A DNA stretch of 28,913 bases from a virus, in IMG/VR virus record IMGVR_UViG_3300031933_000062, positions 1 through 28,913 of that record; one strand, given 5' to 3'. Positions 8,957-28,159 of the stretch are shown in pieces. Numbering within the stretch: position 1 is the first letter of the stretch; each line of letters opens with the position of its first letter. A program made the translations under genes and the position numbers. The notes beneath the pieces are model-generated. The model ran no database searches. It was not told the DNA's origin and saw nothing but the letters and a program-made list of their open reading frames with translations.

Positions 8957-8964
8957 ACTAAATA
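8957..8964 (+). promoter_or_regulatory. Late promoter of predicted small RNA A
   Basis: ACTAAATA. Counting six bases on from the end of the box, as for T4 TATAAATA promoters, puts +1 at G8970, the base immediately before the first hairpin of the predicted RNA. Modules B and C have a box at the identical distance. Confidence 0.55.
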
Positions 8965-8969
8965 ATGGT

Positions 8970-9022
8970 GCCTGACTTAGGTGACACTTTTCAGGTAGAA
9001 GAGGGCAATTGTTGCCCTTTTC
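8970..9022 (+). ncRNA. Predicted antisense small RNA A (to endonuclease 1)
   Basis: Predicted about 52-nt RNA. Hairpin P1 is CCTGA (8971-8975) / TCAGG (8991-8995) with a 15-nt loop; the second hairpin is the 9002-9018 terminator. The loop holds CTTAGGTGACA (8976-8986), exactly complementary to the 5' end of the endonuclease 1 mRNA (TGTCACCTAAG at 9038-9048); if P1 opens, pairing extends to 14 bp including one G-U. The design repeats at 10710 and 12450 with different but matched seeds. It probably represses endonuclease translation in trans, or in cis on read-through RNA. Expression is not shown; this rests on promoter placement, structure and covariation. Confidence 0.6.
9002..9020 (+). terminator. 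Terminator after gene 33 / of small RNA A
   Basis: AGGGCAA / TTGCCCT stem with loop TTG, then TTTTC. It would end both the gene 33 transcript and the predicted small RNA, only a few bases before the next late promoter. Confidence 0.8.
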
Positions 9023-9025
9023 TTG

Positions 9026-9051
9026 TATAAATACTTATGTCACCTAAGTTA
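9026..9051 (+). promoter_or_regulatory. Late promoter and seed-target leader of endonuclease 1
   Basis: TATAAATA at 9026-9033 is a perfect T4 late box; predicted +1 is G9039. The leader starts with the target arm TGTCACCTAAGT (9038-9049), the reverse complement of 8975-8986. The arm ends directly against the purine-rich ribosome binding region (AAGAGTAGAA) of the ATG at 9061, so pairing would block initiation. Confidence 0.65.
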
Positions 9052-9060
9052 AGAGTAGAA

Positions 9061-9456
9061 ATGTATTACGTTTATCTCTGGGTAAGAGAGAATAGAACTC
9101 CTTATTATGTTGGTAAGGGTAAAGAATATAGAGCATATGTAAAACATACTTGGGGAAAAAGATGGATTTCTCCTCCGCCAAAGGATAGAATAGTAATAGT
9201 TAAATATTTTGATAATGAAGAAGAAAGTTATTTATTTGAAGAGTGGTTAATATCCGTATATAAAAGAAAAAGTGAGGGTGGTATTCTTATTAACAGAAGT
9301 ATTGGTGGAAGAAATAGATCAAGTTTAATAAGAACTCAAGAAGAAAAAGAAAAATTAAGAATTGAAGCGTTAAAAAAATATCAACAGTCCGAAAAAGGAA
9401 AAGAAACACAAAGAAAATGGGTGGAAAGAAATAAAGAAAGAGTAATAAAAAAATAA
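9061..9456 (+). CDS. GIY-YIG homing endonuclease, C-terminus frameshifted
   Basis: A 131-residue product from the ATG at 9061. MYYVYLWVRENRTPYYVGKG holds the GIY-YIG strand pair (YVY...YYVG), followed by KEYRAYVKH with the catalytic Arg region and an ESYLFEEWLI helix with the metal-binding Glu; INRSIGGRNRS is the usual end of the nuclease domain. I preferred 9061 to the ATG at 9037 because the latter lies before the predicted late start and inside the seed-target arm. The frame stops in a run of seven A; the rest of the basic repeat tail continues in another frame (9449-9724). Freestanding endonuclease between genes 33 and 59. Confidence 0.8.
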   Translation: MYYVYLWVRENRTPYYVGKGKEYRAYVKHTWGKRWISPPPKDRIVIVKYFDNEEESYLFEEWLISVYKRKSEGGILINRSIGGRNRSSLIRTQEEKEKLRIEALKKYQQSEKGKETQRKWVERNKERVIKK

Positions 9457-9724
9457 GAAAAAATATGCGGATAATAATAGAGAAAAACTAAATGAAAAGG
9501 GGAGGAATAGTAAAACAAAAAAGGAATGTAATAAAAAGTATAGAGAAAAAAATAAAGAAACAATAAAAGAAATTCAAAAACAATATCGAATAAAAAATAA
9601 AGAAAAATTAAGAGAATATCATAGACAGTATTATCAAAAAAATAGAGAAAAATTAATAGAATATCAAAGACAGCGTGACATAATGAAAAACCTTGAGAAT
9701 GCTCCTCTGGATCCGGAGTCTTGA
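9449..9724 (+). pseudogene. Out-of-frame tail of homing endonuclease 1
   Basis: An open frame one base out of register with the 9061-9456 gene, encoding a lysine/glutamate-rich repeat tail (KYREKNKETIKEIQKQY, EYHRQYYQKNREKLIEYQRQ) of the kind that follows GIY-YIG domains in freestanding endonucleases. The two frames meet at A7 (9447-9453); six A would restore one gene of about 220 codons. It could be a true inactivating insertion, a slippage site or a base-calling error. Its TGA is part of the gp59 promoter's -35 box. Apart from this it explains the otherwise gene-less stretch before gene 59. Confidence 0.7.
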
Positions 9725-9749
9725 CTAGAACCAGAGTTCCTGCTATAAT
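9721..9749 (+). promoter_or_regulatory. Sigma70-type promoter of gene 59
   Basis: TTGACT at 9721-9726, 17 bases, TATAAT at 9744-9749. The -35 overlaps the stop codon of the endonuclease remnant. Predicted start is near 9756, about 17 nt before the gp59 start. Confidence 0.85.
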
Positions 9750-9772
9750 ACATAGAGTTATAATGTAGCACT

Positions 9773-10369
9773 TTGAAGGTGACACCCTATCAAGTTTATG
9801 TTGAATACCTTTCCCAAAAATCACATTTTAGTAATGTAAATTACGATTACTTCTTGTATAATAAAAAGGTTAGGGCATCAGAAAGTTCTTTTCTTCGTAG
9901 AAAAGATCGTTATTTTTTCGAGAAAACATCAAGAAAATATAATGACAAAGAAATTGTAGATTTTTTAGTATCAAACTTTATAGCGGCAGACAATCCCCAG
10001 AGCATATGGATCGGACACATTATCAATTCTGGCGAAAGAACATACGCAGAATGGATGAAAAGACAACAGAGTTTAACCTACTTATTCAAAGAACAATCAA
10101 CGGCATTATTCTCGGGGAAAGAATTAAAAAGTGTCTTCGACTGCTCGAAGGGTCATCCAATTATTCTAAAGACATTCTTAAGAAATGATATATCAATTGA
10201 GAATATGGTAATATATGATACAATATTTTCATTTTCTAAAGAGTATGATAAAAAACTTATAGACCCTATATGGGAAATGACATCTCTTAAAATTAAAAAA
10301 TATAAACCTTTTATACATATTGATATATTCTATTATAAAAAACTATTGCGAGACATTATTAATGAGTAA
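9773..10369 (+). CDS. 59: Loader of DNA helicase, gp59
   Basis: A 198-residue protein aligning by eye to T4 gp59: SFLRRKDRYFFEKTSRKYNDKEIVDFLVSNFIA (pieces at about residues 39-72) matches T4 'YQKRRDKYFFQKLSEKYKLKELALIFISNLVA', followed by IWIGHI matching 'AWIGDI'. gp59 loads the gp41 helicase onto gp32-coated forked DNA. The start is uncertain: TTG at 9773 or GTG at 9779 (VTPYQVYVEYL), with no good Shine-Dalgarno for either and no suitable ATG. It overlaps the next gene by eight bases. T4 synteny with 33 and 32 is kept. Confidence 0.88.
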   Translation: MKVTPYQVYVEYLSQKSHFSNVNYDYFLYNKKVRASESSFLRRKDRYFFEKTSRKYNDKEIVDFLVSNFIAADNPQSIWIGHIINSGERTYAEWMKRQQSLTYLFKEQSTALFSGKELKSVFDCSKGHPIILKTFLRNDISIENMVIYDTIFSFSKEYDKKLIDPIWEMTSLKIKKYKPFIHIDIFYYKKLLRDIINE

Positions 10370-10691
10370 TTTTTTTAATTCTGAACTGGTTCAGAAAGAA
10401 CTAAAAGAAATTAATGAACTTTCAGAAACTCTTTATGAGAGTCTGTTTTCATTTACTATGGGTCCTCGTGAAGAAAAAATAGAACATATTAATAAAATGA
10501 CGGAACTTCTTGAAAAACAGCAGATTATGTATACGAGAATATCATTATCTGATGATCCGGAAGCAATTGAAATCAGAGAAAATCTAAAGAAGTCAGTTGT
10601 CATTATGGGATTCGCCCAAGATACTGATATGAGTATTCTCTTTGGTAATATGAAACAAACTATCGAATCCCTTAAAAATTATCTTGACTGA
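10362..10691 (+). CDS. DUF1825 family protein
   Basis: A 109-residue helical protein beginning MSNFFNSELVQKELKEINEL, the recognisable start of DUF1825, a family shared by cyanobacteria and their phages. A further typical stretch is EKQQIMYTRISLSDDPEA (about residues 44-61). I chose the ATG at 10362 rather than the upstream in-frame ATG at 10320 because family members start MxFFxSELVQKE and the start overlaps the gp59 stop. The function is unknown. Presence in a cyanobacteria-restricted family supports a cyanobacterial host. Confidence 0.85.
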   Translation: MSNFFNSELVQKELKEINELSETLYESLFSFTMGPREEKIEHINKMTELLEKQQIMYTRISLSDDPEAIEIRENLKKSVVIMGFAQDTDMSILFGNMKQTIESLKNYLD

Positions 10692-10696
10692 TTGGT

Positions 10697-10704
10697 AATA
10701 AATA
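10697..10704 (+). promoter_or_regulatory. Late promoter of predicted small RNA B
   Basis: AATAAATA; predicted +1 is G10710, one base before hairpin P1, the same spacing as modules A and C. Confidence 0.55.
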
Positions 10705-10709
10705 CAAAT

Positions 10710-10763
10710 GCCTGATCGGGTGACACTTTTCAGGTTAGATTGGAGTGCTTCGGTGCTCCTTTC
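10710..10763 (+). ncRNA. Predicted antisense small RNA B (to endonuclease 2)
   Basis: Same architecture as RNA A. P1 is CCTGA (10711-10715) / TCAGG (10730-10734) with a 14-nt loop containing TCGGGTGACA (10716-10725). This is complementary to the start of the endonuclease 2 mRNA (TGTCACCCGA, 10779-10788); opening P1 extends the pairing to 13 bp. It ends in a UUCG-loop terminator. Relative to RNA A the seed changes CTTAGG to TCGGG and the target changes to match, which argues for real pairing. Confidence 0.6.
10742..10762 (+). terminator. Terminator after the DUF1825 gene / of small RNA B
   Basis: GGAGTGC-TTCG-GTGCTCC followed by TTTCTT. The stem has two G-U pairs but is closed by the extra-stable C(UUCG)G tetraloop. 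Confidence 0.7.
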
Positions 10764-10766
10764 TTG

Positions 10767-10791
10767 TATAAATACTTATGTCACCCGATTA
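10767..10791 (+). promoter_or_regulatory. Late promoter and seed-target leader of endonuclease 2
   Basis: TATAAATA at 10767-10774, predicted +1 G10780. The target arm TGTCACCCGAT (10779-10789) is the reverse complement of 10715-10725 and abuts the AGAGAAGA ribosome binding site of the ATG at 10799. Confidence 0.65.
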
Positions 10792-10798
10792 GAGAAGA

Positions 10799-11449
10799 AT
10801 GAAAAAGTATTTTTATGTCTATTACTCTTATGAAGAGTTTGGTAATGGATATATTGGAAAAAGAGAATGTAAATGTCTTCCAGAAGAAGATATAAATTAT
10901 TTTGGAAGTTTTAGAGACAAAACTTTTAAACCAACTCAAAAAATCATTTTAGAAACTTTTGATAGCGTAGAAGATGCACTTGAGGCAGAATGTGTTCTTC
11001 ACGACTTTTATGAAGTAGATAAAAATCCTCATTTTGCCAACAAAGCAAGGCAAACTTCTAAAAAGTTTTATTATATTACTCCAAGTGAAAATATGATTGG
11101 TGAAAATAACCCAGCAAAAAGACCAGAAGTTAGAAAGAAAATATCAGATTCTGCTAAAAATAGAAAAGCATCTGAAGAAACCAAAAGAAAAATGAGTAAA
11201 TCACATATGGGAAGAATATCCCCAAAAGGAATGCTTGGTAAAAAACTTACAGAAGAGCAGAGGGAGCAAATAAGAGAAAGAAAAGTAGCAAGAGATAATA
11301 AAACTTGGGTAATGAAAGATCCGGAAGGAAAAATACATACCACAAATAATCTCAAATATTTTTGCGAACAAAATAATCTGACCGATTCAGCTATGCATCA
11401 TGTAATTTGTGGTAAAAGAAATCATCATAAAGGTTGGACGAGGGCTTGA
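10799..11449 (+). CDS. GIY-YIG homing endonuclease (SegG-like position)
   Basis: A 216-residue freestanding endonuclease. The nuclease domain starts YFYVYYSYEEFGNGYIGKRE (residues 4-23; GIY-YIG strands with the Arg), then CKCLPEED, DKTFKPTQKIIL, and EAECVLHDFYEVDKNPHFANK with the catalytic Glu. About residues 105-155 hold NUMOD3-like DNA-binding repeats (SEETKRKMSKSHMGR), and the end (NNLKYFCEQNNLTDSAMHHVI) looks like a helix-turn-helix of NUMOD1 type. It is a paralogue of the 12539-13363 product. It lies just upstream of gene 32, the location of segG in T4. A clear GAGAAG ribosome site precedes the ATG. Confidence 0.85.
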   Translation: MKKYFYVYYSYEEFGNGYIGKRECKCLPEEDINYFGSFRDKTFKPTQKIILETFDSVEDALEAECVLHDFYEVDKNPHFANKARQTSKKFYYITPSENMIGENNPAKRPEVRKKISDSAKNRKASEETKRKMSKSHMGRISPKGMLGKKLTEEQREQIRERKVARDNKTWVMKDPEGKIHTTNNLKYFCEQNNLTDSAMHHVICGKRNHHKGWTRA

Positions 11450-11474
11450 CATCCCTTTATAAATCTTCTATAAT
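11446..11474 (+). promoter_or_regulatory. Sigma70-type promoter of gene 32
   Basis: Consensus TTGACA at 11446-11451, 17 bases, TATAAT at 11469-11474. The -35 contains the TGA stop of endonuclease 2. Leader of about 37 nt to the gp32 ATG. A consensus promoter fits the large amounts of gp32 a T4-like phage needs. Confidence 0.9.
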
Positions 11475-11517
11475 AAAGTTGTCATAAAAACAAATCCAAT
11501 TTATCCAAAAAATCCAA

Positions 11518-12432
11518 ATGTCATTTGCAAATCTTAAAAAACAATCCAAACTAGGTTCTTTAACTGAAAAACTAGTTAAAGAAGTTCAAAAAATGAATAA
11601 TAGTAGTAGTTCGGGGGATGAGCGTTTCTGGAAACTCGAATGCGACAAAGCAAATAATGGTTATGCGGTAATTCGCTTTCTTCCTGCTCCTGATGGAGAA
11701 GACCTGCCATTTGTAAAACTTTATAGTCACGCATTTCAGGGAACCGGAGGTTGGTATATTGAAAATAGTAGGACTACTATTGGAGAAAAAGATCCAGTTT
11801 CGGAATATAATTCAGGTCTCTGGAACTCTGGTATAGATTCCAATAAAGAAATTGCTCGCAAACAGAAACGCAAACTGACTTATATTTCTAACATTTATGT
11901 CGTAAAAGACCCCGCTAATCCAGAAAACGAAGGTGGTGTTTTTCTGTATAAATTCGGTAAAAAAATCTTTGACAAACTTACTGCAGCGATGCAACCTGAG
12001 TTTGAGGATGAGGAATCAATTGACCCATTTGATTTCTGGAAGGGTGCTAACTTTAAACTGAAGGCAAAGAATGTTGCCGGATATCGTAATTATGATTCGA
12101 GTGAGTTTGCCGTTCCCGGACCTCTTCTGGATGATGATGATGCTCTGGAGGCACTATGGAAGAAGCAGAACTCTCTTGCTGAACTTGTTGCCCCAAGTCA
12201 GTTTAAGTCTTATGAAGAACTGAAGACTCGTCTTGATTCTGTTCTTGGAACTAAAGGTTCTCGTCGTACTGATGAAGAAGTTAATGATGAGGATGACTAT
12301 CGTGGTTCGGCACCATCACTAACCGAGGATCTTCGTGGAGAACTCAATAGTCTGAAATCATCTCGCTCTGTTGCGTCTGATGATGAGGATTTTGATGAAT
12401 TGTCATATTTCGAAAAGTTAGCTTCAAATTGA
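11518..12432 (+). CDS. 32: Single-stranded DNA binding protein gp32
   Basis: A 304-residue protein (T4 gp32 is 301). The basic N-terminus SFANLKKQSKLGSLTEKLVKEV corresponds to the cooperativity domain; the OB-fold core follows (GDERFWKLECDKANNGYAVIRFLPAP, pieces at about residues 37-62, then SHAFQGTGGWYIENSRTT and DPVSEYN); the C-terminus is strongly acidic (DDEDFDELSYFEKLASN) as in T4, where it docks partners such as gp59. The T4 zinc site is not seen: only one cysteine is present, as expected of cyanophage versions. It coats ssDNA in replication, recombination and repair. It has its own promoter and terminator. Confidence 0.95.
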   Translation: MSFANLKKQSKLGSLTEKLVKEVQKMNNSSSSGDERFWKLECDKANNGYAVIRFLPAPDGEDLPFVKLYSHAFQGTGGWYIENSRTTIGEKDPVSEYNSGLWNSGIDSNKEIARKQKRKLTYISNIYVVKDPANPENEGGVFLYKFGKKIFDKLTAAMQPEFEDEESIDPFDFWKGANFKLKAKNVAGYRNYDSSEFAVPGPLLDDDDALEALWKKQNSLAELVAPSQFKSYEELKTRLDSVLGTKGSRRTDEEVNDEDDYRGSAPSLTEDLRGELNSLKSSRSVASDDEDFDELSYFEKLASN

Positions 12433-12436
12433 TATA

Positions 12437-12444
12437 ACTAAATA
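12437..12444 (+). promoter_or_regulatory. Late promoter of predicted small RNA C
   Basis: ACTAAATA; predicted +1 is G12450, again one base before hairpin P1. Confidence 0.55.
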
Positions 12445-12449
12445 ACTAC

Positions 12450-12501
12450 GCCTTAACTGACTGCAATCTATAAGGTAGGAGAGGAGAAATCCTCTCTTTT
12501 T
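12450..12501 (+). ncRNA. Predicted antisense small RNA C (to endonuclease 3)
   Basis: Third copy of the module and the most diverged. P1 is CCTTA (12451-12455) / TAAGG (12471-12475), a compensated change from the CCTGA/TCAGG of A and B. The 15-nt loop holds ACTGACTGCA (12456-12465), complementary to TGCAGTCAGT at 12517-12526 at the start of the endonuclease 3 mRNA. It ends in a strong terminator with a GAAA tetraloop. Structure, spacing and promoter positions are kept although the seed sequence is unrelated to that in A and B. Confidence 0.6.
12477..12501 (+). terminator. Gene 32 terminator / end of small RNA C
   Basis: AGGAGAGGA / TCCTCTCTT stem (one G-U pair) closed by a GAAA tetraloop, then a T run. 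Strong Rho-independent terminator after gp32. Confidence 0.88.
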
Positions 12502-12504
12502 CAT

Positions 12505-12526
12505 TATAAATAATAATGCAGTCAGT
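12505..12526 (+). promoter_or_regulatory. Late promoter and seed-target leader of endonuclease 3
   Basis: TATAAATA at 12505-12512, predicted +1 G12518. The target arm TGCAGTCAGT lies at 12517-12526, the reverse complement of the RNA C loop, about 12 nt before the ATG at 12539 and next to the weak AAAGAGCGG ribosome region. Confidence 0.65.
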
Positions 12527-12538
12527 CAAAGAGCGGTT

Positions 12539-13363
12539 ATGGAACTCAAAGAGTATCATTATGTCTATTACTCCTATGAAGAATGGGATAGGGGATATTT
12601 TGGTAGTAGAACTTGTAAATGCTTACCAGAAGAAGACATAAGATATTTTGGTTCTTATGCAGATAAAACATTTAAACCAACTCAAAAGATAATCTTAAAG
12701 GATGATTATGTTACAAGAGAAGAAGCATACACAGATGAGATTATCTTACAAAATTACTATAAGGTAGTTGAGAATCCACACTTTGCCAATAGGTCATATC
12801 AAACTTCTACTGGGTTTAGTCAAAAAGGAAGAATTGCTTGGAACAAAGGAATCCCTAGAGATCCAGAAACTATAAGAAAAATGAGTGAAAGTAGGAAGGG
12901 AAAACCTTCTTCCAACAAAGGAAAAAAGATGAGTTTGGAACATAGGCAAAAATTAAGTATTGCTTGTAAGGGCAGGAAGGTGTCAGAAGAAACAAAGAAA
13001 AAAATAAGCAAAACGACAAAAGGAAAAAAATTAACTGAAGAACATAAAAGAAAAATTGCAGATGCAAATAAAGGAACTCCAAAAACTATGACTGAAAAAA
13101 GGAAACAATCAGACATAGAAAAAGGTTTAAAGGCAAGAGGAAAACTGAAAAAAAAGTTTAGCGAAGAAACTAAAAGAAAAATAAGCGAAGCAACTAAAGG
13201 AAGAGTTCCTTGGAATAAAGGATTAATGGGAGTGCAAAAAAATCCAAGATCAATAAAAGTATGTTATGGTGGGATAATATACGAATCCATAAAAGATGCT
13301 ATGGAAAAAAATAATAAATCACGGAATTATATTAAAAAATACGGAAATATGTTGTTATCTTAA
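12539..13363 (+). CDS. GIY-YIG homing endonuclease with NUMOD3 repeats
   Basis: A 274-residue freestanding endonuclease. The nuclease domain starts YHYVYYSYEEWDRGYFGSRT (residues 5-24), with CKCLPEED, DKTFKPTQKIIL and NPHFANRSYQTS shared with endonuclease 2, so the two are paralogues. Residues about 100-235 contain serial NUMOD3-type repeats of the form K-x-S-E-E-T-K-x-K-I-S-x-x-x-K-G-K that bind DNA along the minor groove. The C-terminal YGGIIYESIKDAMEKNNKSRNYIKKY resembles NUMOD1. It lies directly after gene 32 and converges with gp53, the stop codons one base apart, with no separate terminator between them. Confidence 0.85.
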   Translation: MELKEYHYVYYSYEEWDRGYFGSRTCKCLPEEDIRYFGSYADKTFKPTQKIILKDDYVTREEAYTDEIILQNYYKVVENPHFANRSYQTSTGFSQKGRIAWNKGIPRDPETIRKMSESRKGKPSSNKGKKMSLEHRQKLSIACKGRKVSEETKKKISKTTKGKKLTEEHKRKIADANKGTPKTMTEKRKQSDIEKGLKARGKLKKKFSEETKRKISEATKGRVPWNKGLMGVQKNPRSIKVCYGGIIYESIKDAMEKNNKSRNYIKKYGNMLLS

Positions 13364-27888: not shown

Positions 27889-28159
27889 GCCCGTATAGCC
27901 CAGCGGAAGAGGCAAGAGACTTATGAAAATTGAGCCTCATTTAGGAAACTTTATGAGTGTAATTCCTCAAATTCGGTGAAACCTGTAAAATGGCAATACC
28001 GAGCCAAGCATCACAAGATGAAGGTGTAGAGACTAGACGGGGAACACCTAAACCGAAAGGTATGGTGAAGGTATAGTCCAGACCACAAACCGAAAGGGTA
28101 ATGAAAATTATAGTGGTAAGAAAATCTCTCAAGCGGTGGTTCGAATCCACTTACGGGTA
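27889..28159 (+). tRNA. Intron-containing tRNA, predicted anticodon UAA
   Basis: Exon 1 is 27889-27922 and exon 2 is 28121-28159; spliced they give exactly 73 bases: acceptor GCCCGTA / TACGGGT (first pair G-U), D arm with GCC / GGC, anticodon stem AGAGA / TCTCT around CTTAAAA, a five-base variable loop, and a normal T arm GGTGG-TTCGAAT-CCACT with A73. The intron sits between positions 34 and 35, the site of the cyanobacterial tRNA-Leu(UAA) intron. The anticodon UAA would read leucine UUA, but the short variable loop is not that of a leucine tRNA. TTGACT at 27858 and TATAAT at 27871 lie upstream but are badly spaced. Confidence 0.8.
27923..28120 (+). other. Group I intron (cyanobacterial tRNA type, IC3-like)
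   Basis: 198 bases with all four core elements in order: P (AATTCGGTGAAACC), Q (AATACCGAGCC), R (GTAGAGACTAGACGG) and S (AAGGTATAGTCC). It closely resembles the Anabaena tRNA-Leu intron: AAAATTGAGCC near the start, GTAAG at the end with the terminal G. P1 is the exon CTT with intron GAG, giving the conserved U-G pair at the 5' splice site. It has no internal open frame; an endonuclease gene lies just outside the tRNA. Confidence 0.92.

Follow-up and report, generated by a model that had tools for sequence, protein, structure and literature searches.

In the mobile element IS10, the antisense RNA RNA-OUT prevents translation of the DNA-cutting enzyme that the element encodes; RNA-OUT is convergent with its target and overlaps it. 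The c4 RNA of the phages P1 and P7 is encoded ahead of ant in the same orientation and is processed from the ant transcript. c4 is described as an antisense RNA whose complementary stretches, probably loop-borne, pair around the ribosome site of the target and block translation, with a specificity that differs between the two phages (PMC12197685); it is filed as Rfam RF01695 (PMC2864571). For the T4-type phage homing endonucleases I-TevI, I-TevII, I-TevIII, segB and Aeh1 mobE, complementary RNA upstream is reported to restrain translation, from which late RNA escapes by means of a late promoter (PMC2988022), and in cyanophage S-PM2 the antisense RNA CfrI, about 225 nucleotides (nt) long, is reported from the opposite strand near F-CphI and psbA (PMC2984593). 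A review on post-transcriptional control in T4 states that no small trans-acting regulatory RNA has been functionally characterised from this phage and that T4-related genomes might suggest candidates (PMC3014915). Here we present three elements, A, B and C, each situated ahead of a homing endonuclease gene in the IMG/VR virus record IMGVR_UViG_3300031933_000062. The stretch analysed (positions 1 to 28,913, in the following the window) is a piece of a T4-like cyanophage genome. Each element consists of a late promoter (P1), a predicted hairpin RNA with terminator, a second late promoter (P2) and a leader complementary to the hairpin loop. We estimate a probability of roughly 0.7 that a late antisense RNA of about 50-60 nt pairs with the 5' end of its own nuclease messenger RNA (mRNA) and blocks translation.

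Like c4, the elements have predicted antisense complementarity next to the ribosome site of the target; unlike c4, which controls an antirepressor, they have a separate late promoter and a terminator, a nuclease as target and about a hundred seeds (the complementary segments of the loops). The c4 covariance model (RF01695) gave no match in the window in an Rfam search with E up to 1. A late promoter between two arms is shared by elements A-C and the T4 ribosome-binding-site (RBS) hairpins, but the latter are single cis stems, for which the available text describes no small RNA, fixed upstream promoter or inter-arm terminator (PMC2988022). As with CfrI, the predicted RNA belongs to a T4-like cyanophage and touches a homing endonuclease gene; it differs in lying upstream on the strand of its target (P1 and P2 are co-directional) and in its short complementarity. 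In contrast to RNA-OUT, the elements have two tandem promoters with separately evolving complementary segments. An earlier note on this DNA, made from the letters alone, had stated that no equivalent is described, which is too strong in view of c4 and of the T4 endonuclease cis RBS hairpins with internal late promoter. No account of this particular arrangement was found in the accessible parts of the open-licence literature searched.

Layout of elements A, B and C

All three elements have the same order of P1, hairpin RNA, terminator, P2, loop-complementary leader and endonuclease gene (Table 1). The P1 hexamer is followed by 5 bases, a purine, a hairpin of 5-6 base pairs with a loop of 14-15 nt, the terminator and P2, which reads TATAAATA; late promoters resembling TATAAATA are reported in cyanophages (PMC2984593). 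Arms, loops, spacings of 51, 53 and 51 nt between the arms, and promoters were confirmed in all three elements at the positions given in the earlier note. Its layout and fold of an RNA with hairpin and terminator hold as well, with a predicted length of about 52-56 nt in A, B and C in place of the 50 nt originally given. Compared with shuffled sequences hairpin and terminator are unusually stable (z values in Table 1), 0, 0 and 1 of 200 shuffles being equally stable for A, B and C, respectively. The Rfam search of the window assigned no family to the elements.

Predicted duplexes between each RNA and its own leader range from -20.8 to -25.3 kcal/mol, compared with -4.8 to -13.5 kcal/mol for non-cognate combinations. 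The A-B crossing is the strongest of the latter; both seeds contain the 7-nt core GGTGACA, and the cognate values of -21.6 and -25.3 kcal/mol stand against crossed values of -13.5 and -12.8 kcal/mol. The six elements of the cultured Synechococcus phage S-SRM01 behave alike, since even the weakest cognate duplex (range -18.8 to -24.1 kcal/mol) surpasses the strongest non-cognate duplex (range -3.8 to -14.6 kcal/mol).

Loop-leader pairing and covariation

Viral contigs were scanned with two DNA patterns, the first consisting of two promoters and a CCT/AGG hairpin, with neither complementarity nor an endonuclease required, and the second covering GCTC/GCTT hairpins. Pair counts and swap tests in this paragraph and the next are among the matches listed. 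The first pattern yielded 119 distinct matches, 92 of them with at least 9 contiguous Watson-Crick pairs between the hairpin and its own leader. Shuffled leaders reached the same threshold in 1 of 2,380 cases and leaders taken from other elements, often related ones, in 80 of 2,364, so that the complementarity noticed at first lies beyond chance. Among 57 distinct matches of the second pattern, 47 have at least 8 pairs and the other 10 at most 6. When both patterns were combined and no pair was dropped, 119 of 143 unique hairpin-leader pairs matched at no fewer than 9 of 10 positions, whereas 200 rounds of swapping and re-anchoring the leaders gave a mean of 3.8 and a maximum of 10 such pairs (n=143). 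Two earlier swap tests (355/368 versus 161 ± 9.6 and 685/736 versus 291.5 ± 13.4) were biased toward antisense pairing, since pairs below a minimum of 7 Watson-Crick positions were excluded (3 of 77, namely L100, L135 and L156, and 15 of 143) and no re-anchoring followed the swaps; the effect stands in the repeat free of both biases.

Departures from Watson-Crick pairing are unevenly distributed. The 92 non-redundant pairs matching at 7 or more of 10 positions (920 cells) contain 30 G.U or U.G, 1 A.C type and 24 other departures, and the first pattern alone (460 cells) contains 13 G.U, 0 A.C and 3 others. Because G.U departures are common and A.C departures hardly occur, selection on RNA is indicated, with the pairing read in the RNA of the coding strand; a DNA-recognised inverted repeat would be expected to show both kinds equally often. 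This bears on the possibility that the endonuclease binds the inverted repeats as DNA operators, a mode of autorepression known from I-TevI (PMC2988022). Operators would also have to be reconciled with seeds that differ between endonucleases of 85% identity (L008 versus gene B) and with one layout ahead of unrelated nucleases, and we regard them as very improbable here.

Covariation extends to the carrier stem of the loop, with an own score of 5.20 and a swapped score of 4.14 ± 0.06 (30 swaps, 157 distinct pairs), and this stem occurs in variants as unlike as CCTGA/TCAGG, CCTTA/TAAGG, CTCTAA/TTAGAG and GTCTGT/ACAGAC. Complementarity to the leader often extends into the 5' strand of this stem. 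The duplex takes in the bases at the predicted start of the P2 transcript, and its distance from the start codon is 5-13 nt in 141 of 158 cases. The match code between loop and leader has been altered repeatedly in evolution.

The layout recurs in many cyanobacterial viruses, and the loci collected contain at least 268 distinct elements from 231 loci, with at least 101 different 10-nt seeds; element totals from the pattern scans are lower bounds. Many elements are kin by descent, and counts of sequences do not equal counts of events. When seeds at most 2 bases apart are joined, the 101 seeds (among the matches listed) fall into 19 groups. The seeds are therefore 19 groups and not 101 unrelated codes, and their independence is correspondingly lower. 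The private seed postulated for each endonuclease is found only in part: the seeds of A and B share the core described above, and one contig carries an identical hairpin at 51855 and 67057. Non-cognate matches of at least 8 positions inside one record amount to 16 of 162 ordered pairs (33 records), compared with 3.9% between records; TAAATAAATA promoters were counted once, as double counting inflates the figure, and loci unmapped to a common contig were taken as separate records. Selection of private seeds for orthogonality was considered and found to have no support, the non-cognate matches within records being no rarer than those between records.

Upstream promoter, terminator and the proposed brake

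Loci fetched by endonuclease similarity, with P1 ignored in the search, gave 45 candidates. After setting aside four (without terminator or hairpin) and a chance match (L035, position 3448), P1 was present at identical spacing in all 40 remaining elements, as TAAATA in 38 and TATATA in 2; two of the 40 had script flags solely from a stem extended by one pair. P2 is TATAAATA in 170 of 180 elements, and the +1 of the RNA is a purine, itself part of the pattern scans, in 179 of 180. Clean scrambles of P1 (AATATA and ATTAAA) gave 4 matches each versus 199 for the real hexamer; ATAATA (73), AATAAT (107) and AAATAT (28) overlap real promoters and are weak as controls. Complementary arms were found behind TAAATA in 168 cases, compared with 11 for AATAAA, 6 for TTAAAA and 3 for ATTTAA; for AAATAT the number was 29, and two further hexamers, ATAAAT and TATAAA, were unusable as controls owing to their overlap with the promoter.

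The elements could instead be cis hairpins only, of the type of T4 I-TevI, segB and Aeh1 mobE, in which early or middle read-through RNA would pair arm 1 with arm 2, hiding the start region, and late RNA from P2, lacking arm 1, would be translated. P2 is flanked by the arms, as is the late promoter in the T4 cases, the arms fold together in the read-through RNA as a long stem (minimum free energy about -36 kcal/mol, with pairing that reaches somewhat further than the arm duplex in A and C), and arm covariation and the G.U bias are compatible with such a hairpin. It would, however, require neither the 3' strand of the carrier hairpin, which covaries, nor a P1 at constant distance. An inter-arm terminator would be unneeded and may even reduce the read-through RNA, yet 271 of the 278 candidates from all loci combine hairpin and terminator (among the matches listed), the seven dropped being mostly similar to real elements and slightly below threshold. 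The predicted duplex moreover mostly ends ahead of the start codon, whereas T4 stems hide the RBS itself. A trans-acting RNA is favoured, because the cis model accounts for neither the covarying carrier hairpin, P1 nor the terminator, and we consider a purely cis function unlikely. Cis folding of read-through RNA and a trans RNA may both act.

According to the antisense mechanism proposed here, each element would be the regulatory part of a mobile cassette that carries a nuclease. Late in infection the small RNA would be made from P1 and ended by the terminator, and its hairpin loop and 5' stem strand would display 10-16 nt antisense to the nuclease mRNA 5' end. P2, immediately past the terminator, would produce this mRNA, with the first ~10-16 nt as target. 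The loop would contact the mRNA 5' end, the leader would invade the hairpin, and the resulting duplex would exclude ribosomes. A translational block is the natural reading of a duplex that lies at the mRNA start and mostly ends 5-13 nt before the start codon, and since RNA and target would come from adjacent late promoters, the brake would scale with copy number. Its purpose may be to limit damage by the nuclease. Pairing at the very 5' end of the mRNA predicted to start from P2 could alternatively stabilise or activate this mRNA, for example against 5'-end-dependent decay. Activation appears quite improbable, as no inhibitory structure to open is predicted in the leaders of A, B and C (fold z 0.6, 0.0 and 1.2) and the duplex adjoins the ribosome site.

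The antisense brake put forward in the earlier note is in part supported by pairing kept through compensatory change, stem covariation, the fixed P1, the near-constant terminator and the nucleases behind the elements, part of which a cis read-through hairpin predicts as well. Several points weigh against it. The small RNA is predicted here from sequence alone, and sequence by itself cannot separate out a cis role, as the read-through RNA also folds the arms. Non-cognate matches leave selected orthogonality unsupported. P1 is missing in one element (L016), degenerate in that of S-CREM2 and shifted in that of MA01. If the antisense reading is true, the elements are a whole RNA family with many natural seed variants, present in cultured phages; they would show how carriers tolerate selfish DNA-cutting genes and would form a natural library for antisense recognition rules. 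It can be tested now, since five cultured phages carry elements.

Distribution, associated nucleases and probable insertion as a cassette

Gene B has 48 relatives in viral contigs. The upstream stretch was examined for 42 of them, and the remaining six were left out for a missing gene start or a weak match. No element is present upstream in five of the 42 (L022, L029, L038, L046 and L049), the contig breaks off within the stretch in two (L019 and L020), and L016 has its element without P1; the others carry the element, several with changed yet complementary arms. In cellular genomes the P1-CCT/AGG-P2 pattern gave nine matches, all with at most 4 contiguous Watson-Crick pairs, and the element was not seen with that pattern.

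The cultured phages with elements are S-SRM01 (six), B23 (two), S-B68, S-CREM2 and MA01 (one each). The arms of MA01 consist of 8 pairs, one mismatch and further pairs. No element was found around one endonuclease each in S-PM2, three ACG-2014f isolates, Sf-CH5, S-B43, S-N03, Alteromonas phage AD45-P4, MC09, ME01, S-H34, RN05-S, Ec_Makalu_001, phiN3 and VBP47, a selection from similarity matches with one endonuclease region per phage. In phage MC09 (L440, 570-700) the endonuclease gene is opposite to its neighbours and has a late-promoter hexamer close upstream, with no complementary RNA element. A narrow pattern run on nine whole phage records matched only S-SRM01 (five places, four of them elements); its zeros mean little, because it missed the known elements of B23 and S-B68.

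An open reading frame (ORF) follows the leader in 261 of 268 elements, 24 of these frames running off the contig, and one similarity cluster takes 242 of the 261 proteins (both counts among the matches listed). Endonuclease remains are found in five of the seven elements without ORF, and none are evident in L102 and L357. From an earlier set of 158, 56 representatives were scanned, with matches to phrog_314 'homing endonuclease' in 40, NUMOD3 in 30 and GIY-YIG in 5. Seven outlier representatives were scanned singly, a scan that left out some small outliers (among them L113, L331, L363 and L378), and six match nucleases: TnpB (L143; PF01385 and PF07282), HNH_3 (L084), endonuclease VII (L059), HNH/endonuclease VII (L268), HNH (L096) and homing endonuclease phrog_655 (L111). 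The seventh (L069 at 11591) matches only families without named function. In nearly all nameable cases the genes behind the elements are nucleases. Since unrelated nucleases stand behind one layout, the layout tracks a way of life and not one protein fold. The element ahead of the TnpB-type gene (L143, 3849-5151) lies in a 243-kb viral contig with further elements.

Loci that keep the hairpin but lose complementarity, a pattern named in the earlier note as counting against its idea, are few. At the gp32/gp53 site of L024 (1891-1960) a unit of P1, hairpin and terminator stands without P2, leader and endonuclease, as a relic or an orphan antisense RNA. On the minus strand of L135, from 1931, RNA unit and P2 are intact, the leader match is lost and no intact endonuclease gene follows. 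P2 and leader are degenerate in L127 at 3388. The same check showed pairing kept with no evident nuclease behind in L102 (4400-4698), a complete element in which the ORF starting 54 nt past P2 is not nuclease-like and the contig ends soon.

The window contains genes for a gp33-like late-transcription coactivator, gp59, a DUF1825 protein and gp32, with the endonuclease genes interspersed. Matches to homing-endonuclease families comprise phrog_314 for A, B and C and NUMOD3 for B and C. The GIY-YIG label of the earlier note is based on relatives and on a Y-x-Y...YIG/YVG motif recognised by eye; the Pfam GIY-YIG model matched none of the three genes at E 0.001. That model was matched by 5 of 56 and 2 of 18 related proteins in two samples, and a profile of the 18 relatives matches an I-TevI chain in PDB (1i3j, E 0.0013). 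The start of gene A is taken as ATG 9061, as in relatives, ATG 9037 preceding the predicted P2 start. Its frameshift lies in an A-rich run (9430-9490) and closes the frame past residue 131; in all 6 relatives examined (7 loci, one cut short) the frame is open beyond this break. The RNA element of the frameshifted gene A nevertheless retains a perfect 12-nt seed.

Table 1. Features of elements A, B and C, their endonuclease genes and adjoining promoters in the window
Feature	Position	Strand	Remarks
Element A, P1 ACTAAATA	8957..8964	+	TAAATA from 8959; 5 nt ahead of predicted +1 at 8970
Element A, predicted antisense RNA	8970..9023	+	hairpin CCTGA 8971-8975 / TCAGG 8991-8995, 15-nt loop; seed 8975-8986
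Element A, terminator stem and T-run	8997-9023	+	fold z -4.1 for hairpin and terminator
Element A, P2 TATAAATA	9026..9033	+	TAAATA from 9028; predicted +1 at 9039
Element A, leader target	9038..9049	+	perfect complement of 8975-8986; arms ACTTAGGTGACA
Endonuclease gene A	9061..9724	+	phrog_314 and phrog_10829; GIY-YIG-like by motif; frameshift, with the first frame open no further than 9456
Sigma70-type promoter TTGACT-17-TATAAT	9721..9749	+	overlaps gene A stop codon, faces gp59; 11/12 matches
Element B, P1 AATAAATA	10697..10704	+	TAAATA from 10699; predicted +1 at 10710
Element B, predicted antisense RNA	10710..10765	+	hairpin 10711-10715/10730-10734; seed 10715-10725; terminator 10742-10765; fold z -3.6
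Element B, P2 TATAAATA	10767..10774	+	TAAATA from 10769; predicted +1 at 10780
Element B, leader target	10779..10789	+	complementary to seed 10715-10725; arms ATCGGGTGACA
Endonuclease gene B	10799..11449	+	NUMOD3; GIY-YIG-like by motif; 216 amino acids
Sigma70-type promoter TTGACA-17-TATAAT	11446..11474	+	overlaps gene B stop codon, faces gp32; 12/12 matches
Element C, P1 ACTAAATA	12437..12444	+	TAAATA from 12439; predicted +1 at 12450
Element C, predicted antisense RNA	12450..12501	+	hairpin 12451-12455/12471-12475; seed 12456-12465; terminator 12478-12501; fold z -3.0
Element C, P2 TATAAATA	12505..12512	+	TAAATA from 12507; predicted +1 at 12518
Element C, leader target	12517..12526	+	complementary to seed 12456-12465; arms ACTGACTGCA
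Endonuclease gene C	12539..13363	+	NUMOD3; GIY-YIG-like by motif; 274 amino acids; followed by convergent gp53-like gene

The sites of A and C are closed in S-SRM01, where gp33 and gp59 overlap and the gap between gp32 and gp53 measures 29 bases, which suggests that the element arrives together with its endonuclease. The terminator of an element should harm the downstream gene, and the cassette seems to bring its own promoter along with its own terminator. Genes A and B each have a near-consensus sigma70-type promoter lying across the stop codon (Table 1); none was found at the 3' end of gene C, before the convergent gp53-like gene. Matches to at least 11 of 12 consensus bases occur at 46 of 231 distinct nuclease 3' ends, compared with 4 among 1,155 shuffles and none in 231 controls inside the genes. 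At the threshold of 10 of 12 the number of 3' ends is 89, in 31 of which the -35 box lies over the stop codon in one common register. Sorted by the downstream gene, such matches occur in 60 of 133 co-directional and 2 of 20 convergent cases (Fisher p 0.003), and in 24 of 65 with unclear direction.

A wider proposal, possible but doubtful, is that the elements form an exchangeable regulatory cassette serving nucleases with three or more folds, TnpB among them. Seeds would act as incompatibility groups, in which a resident or leftover RNA (as in L024 and L135) silences a newcomer with the same seed; they would diversify like plasmid copy-control RNAs, and the 3' sigma70 promoter would sustain the essential gene downstream.

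The sole match of the Rfam search in the window was a group I intron at 27913-28102 (RF00028, 64.3 bits).

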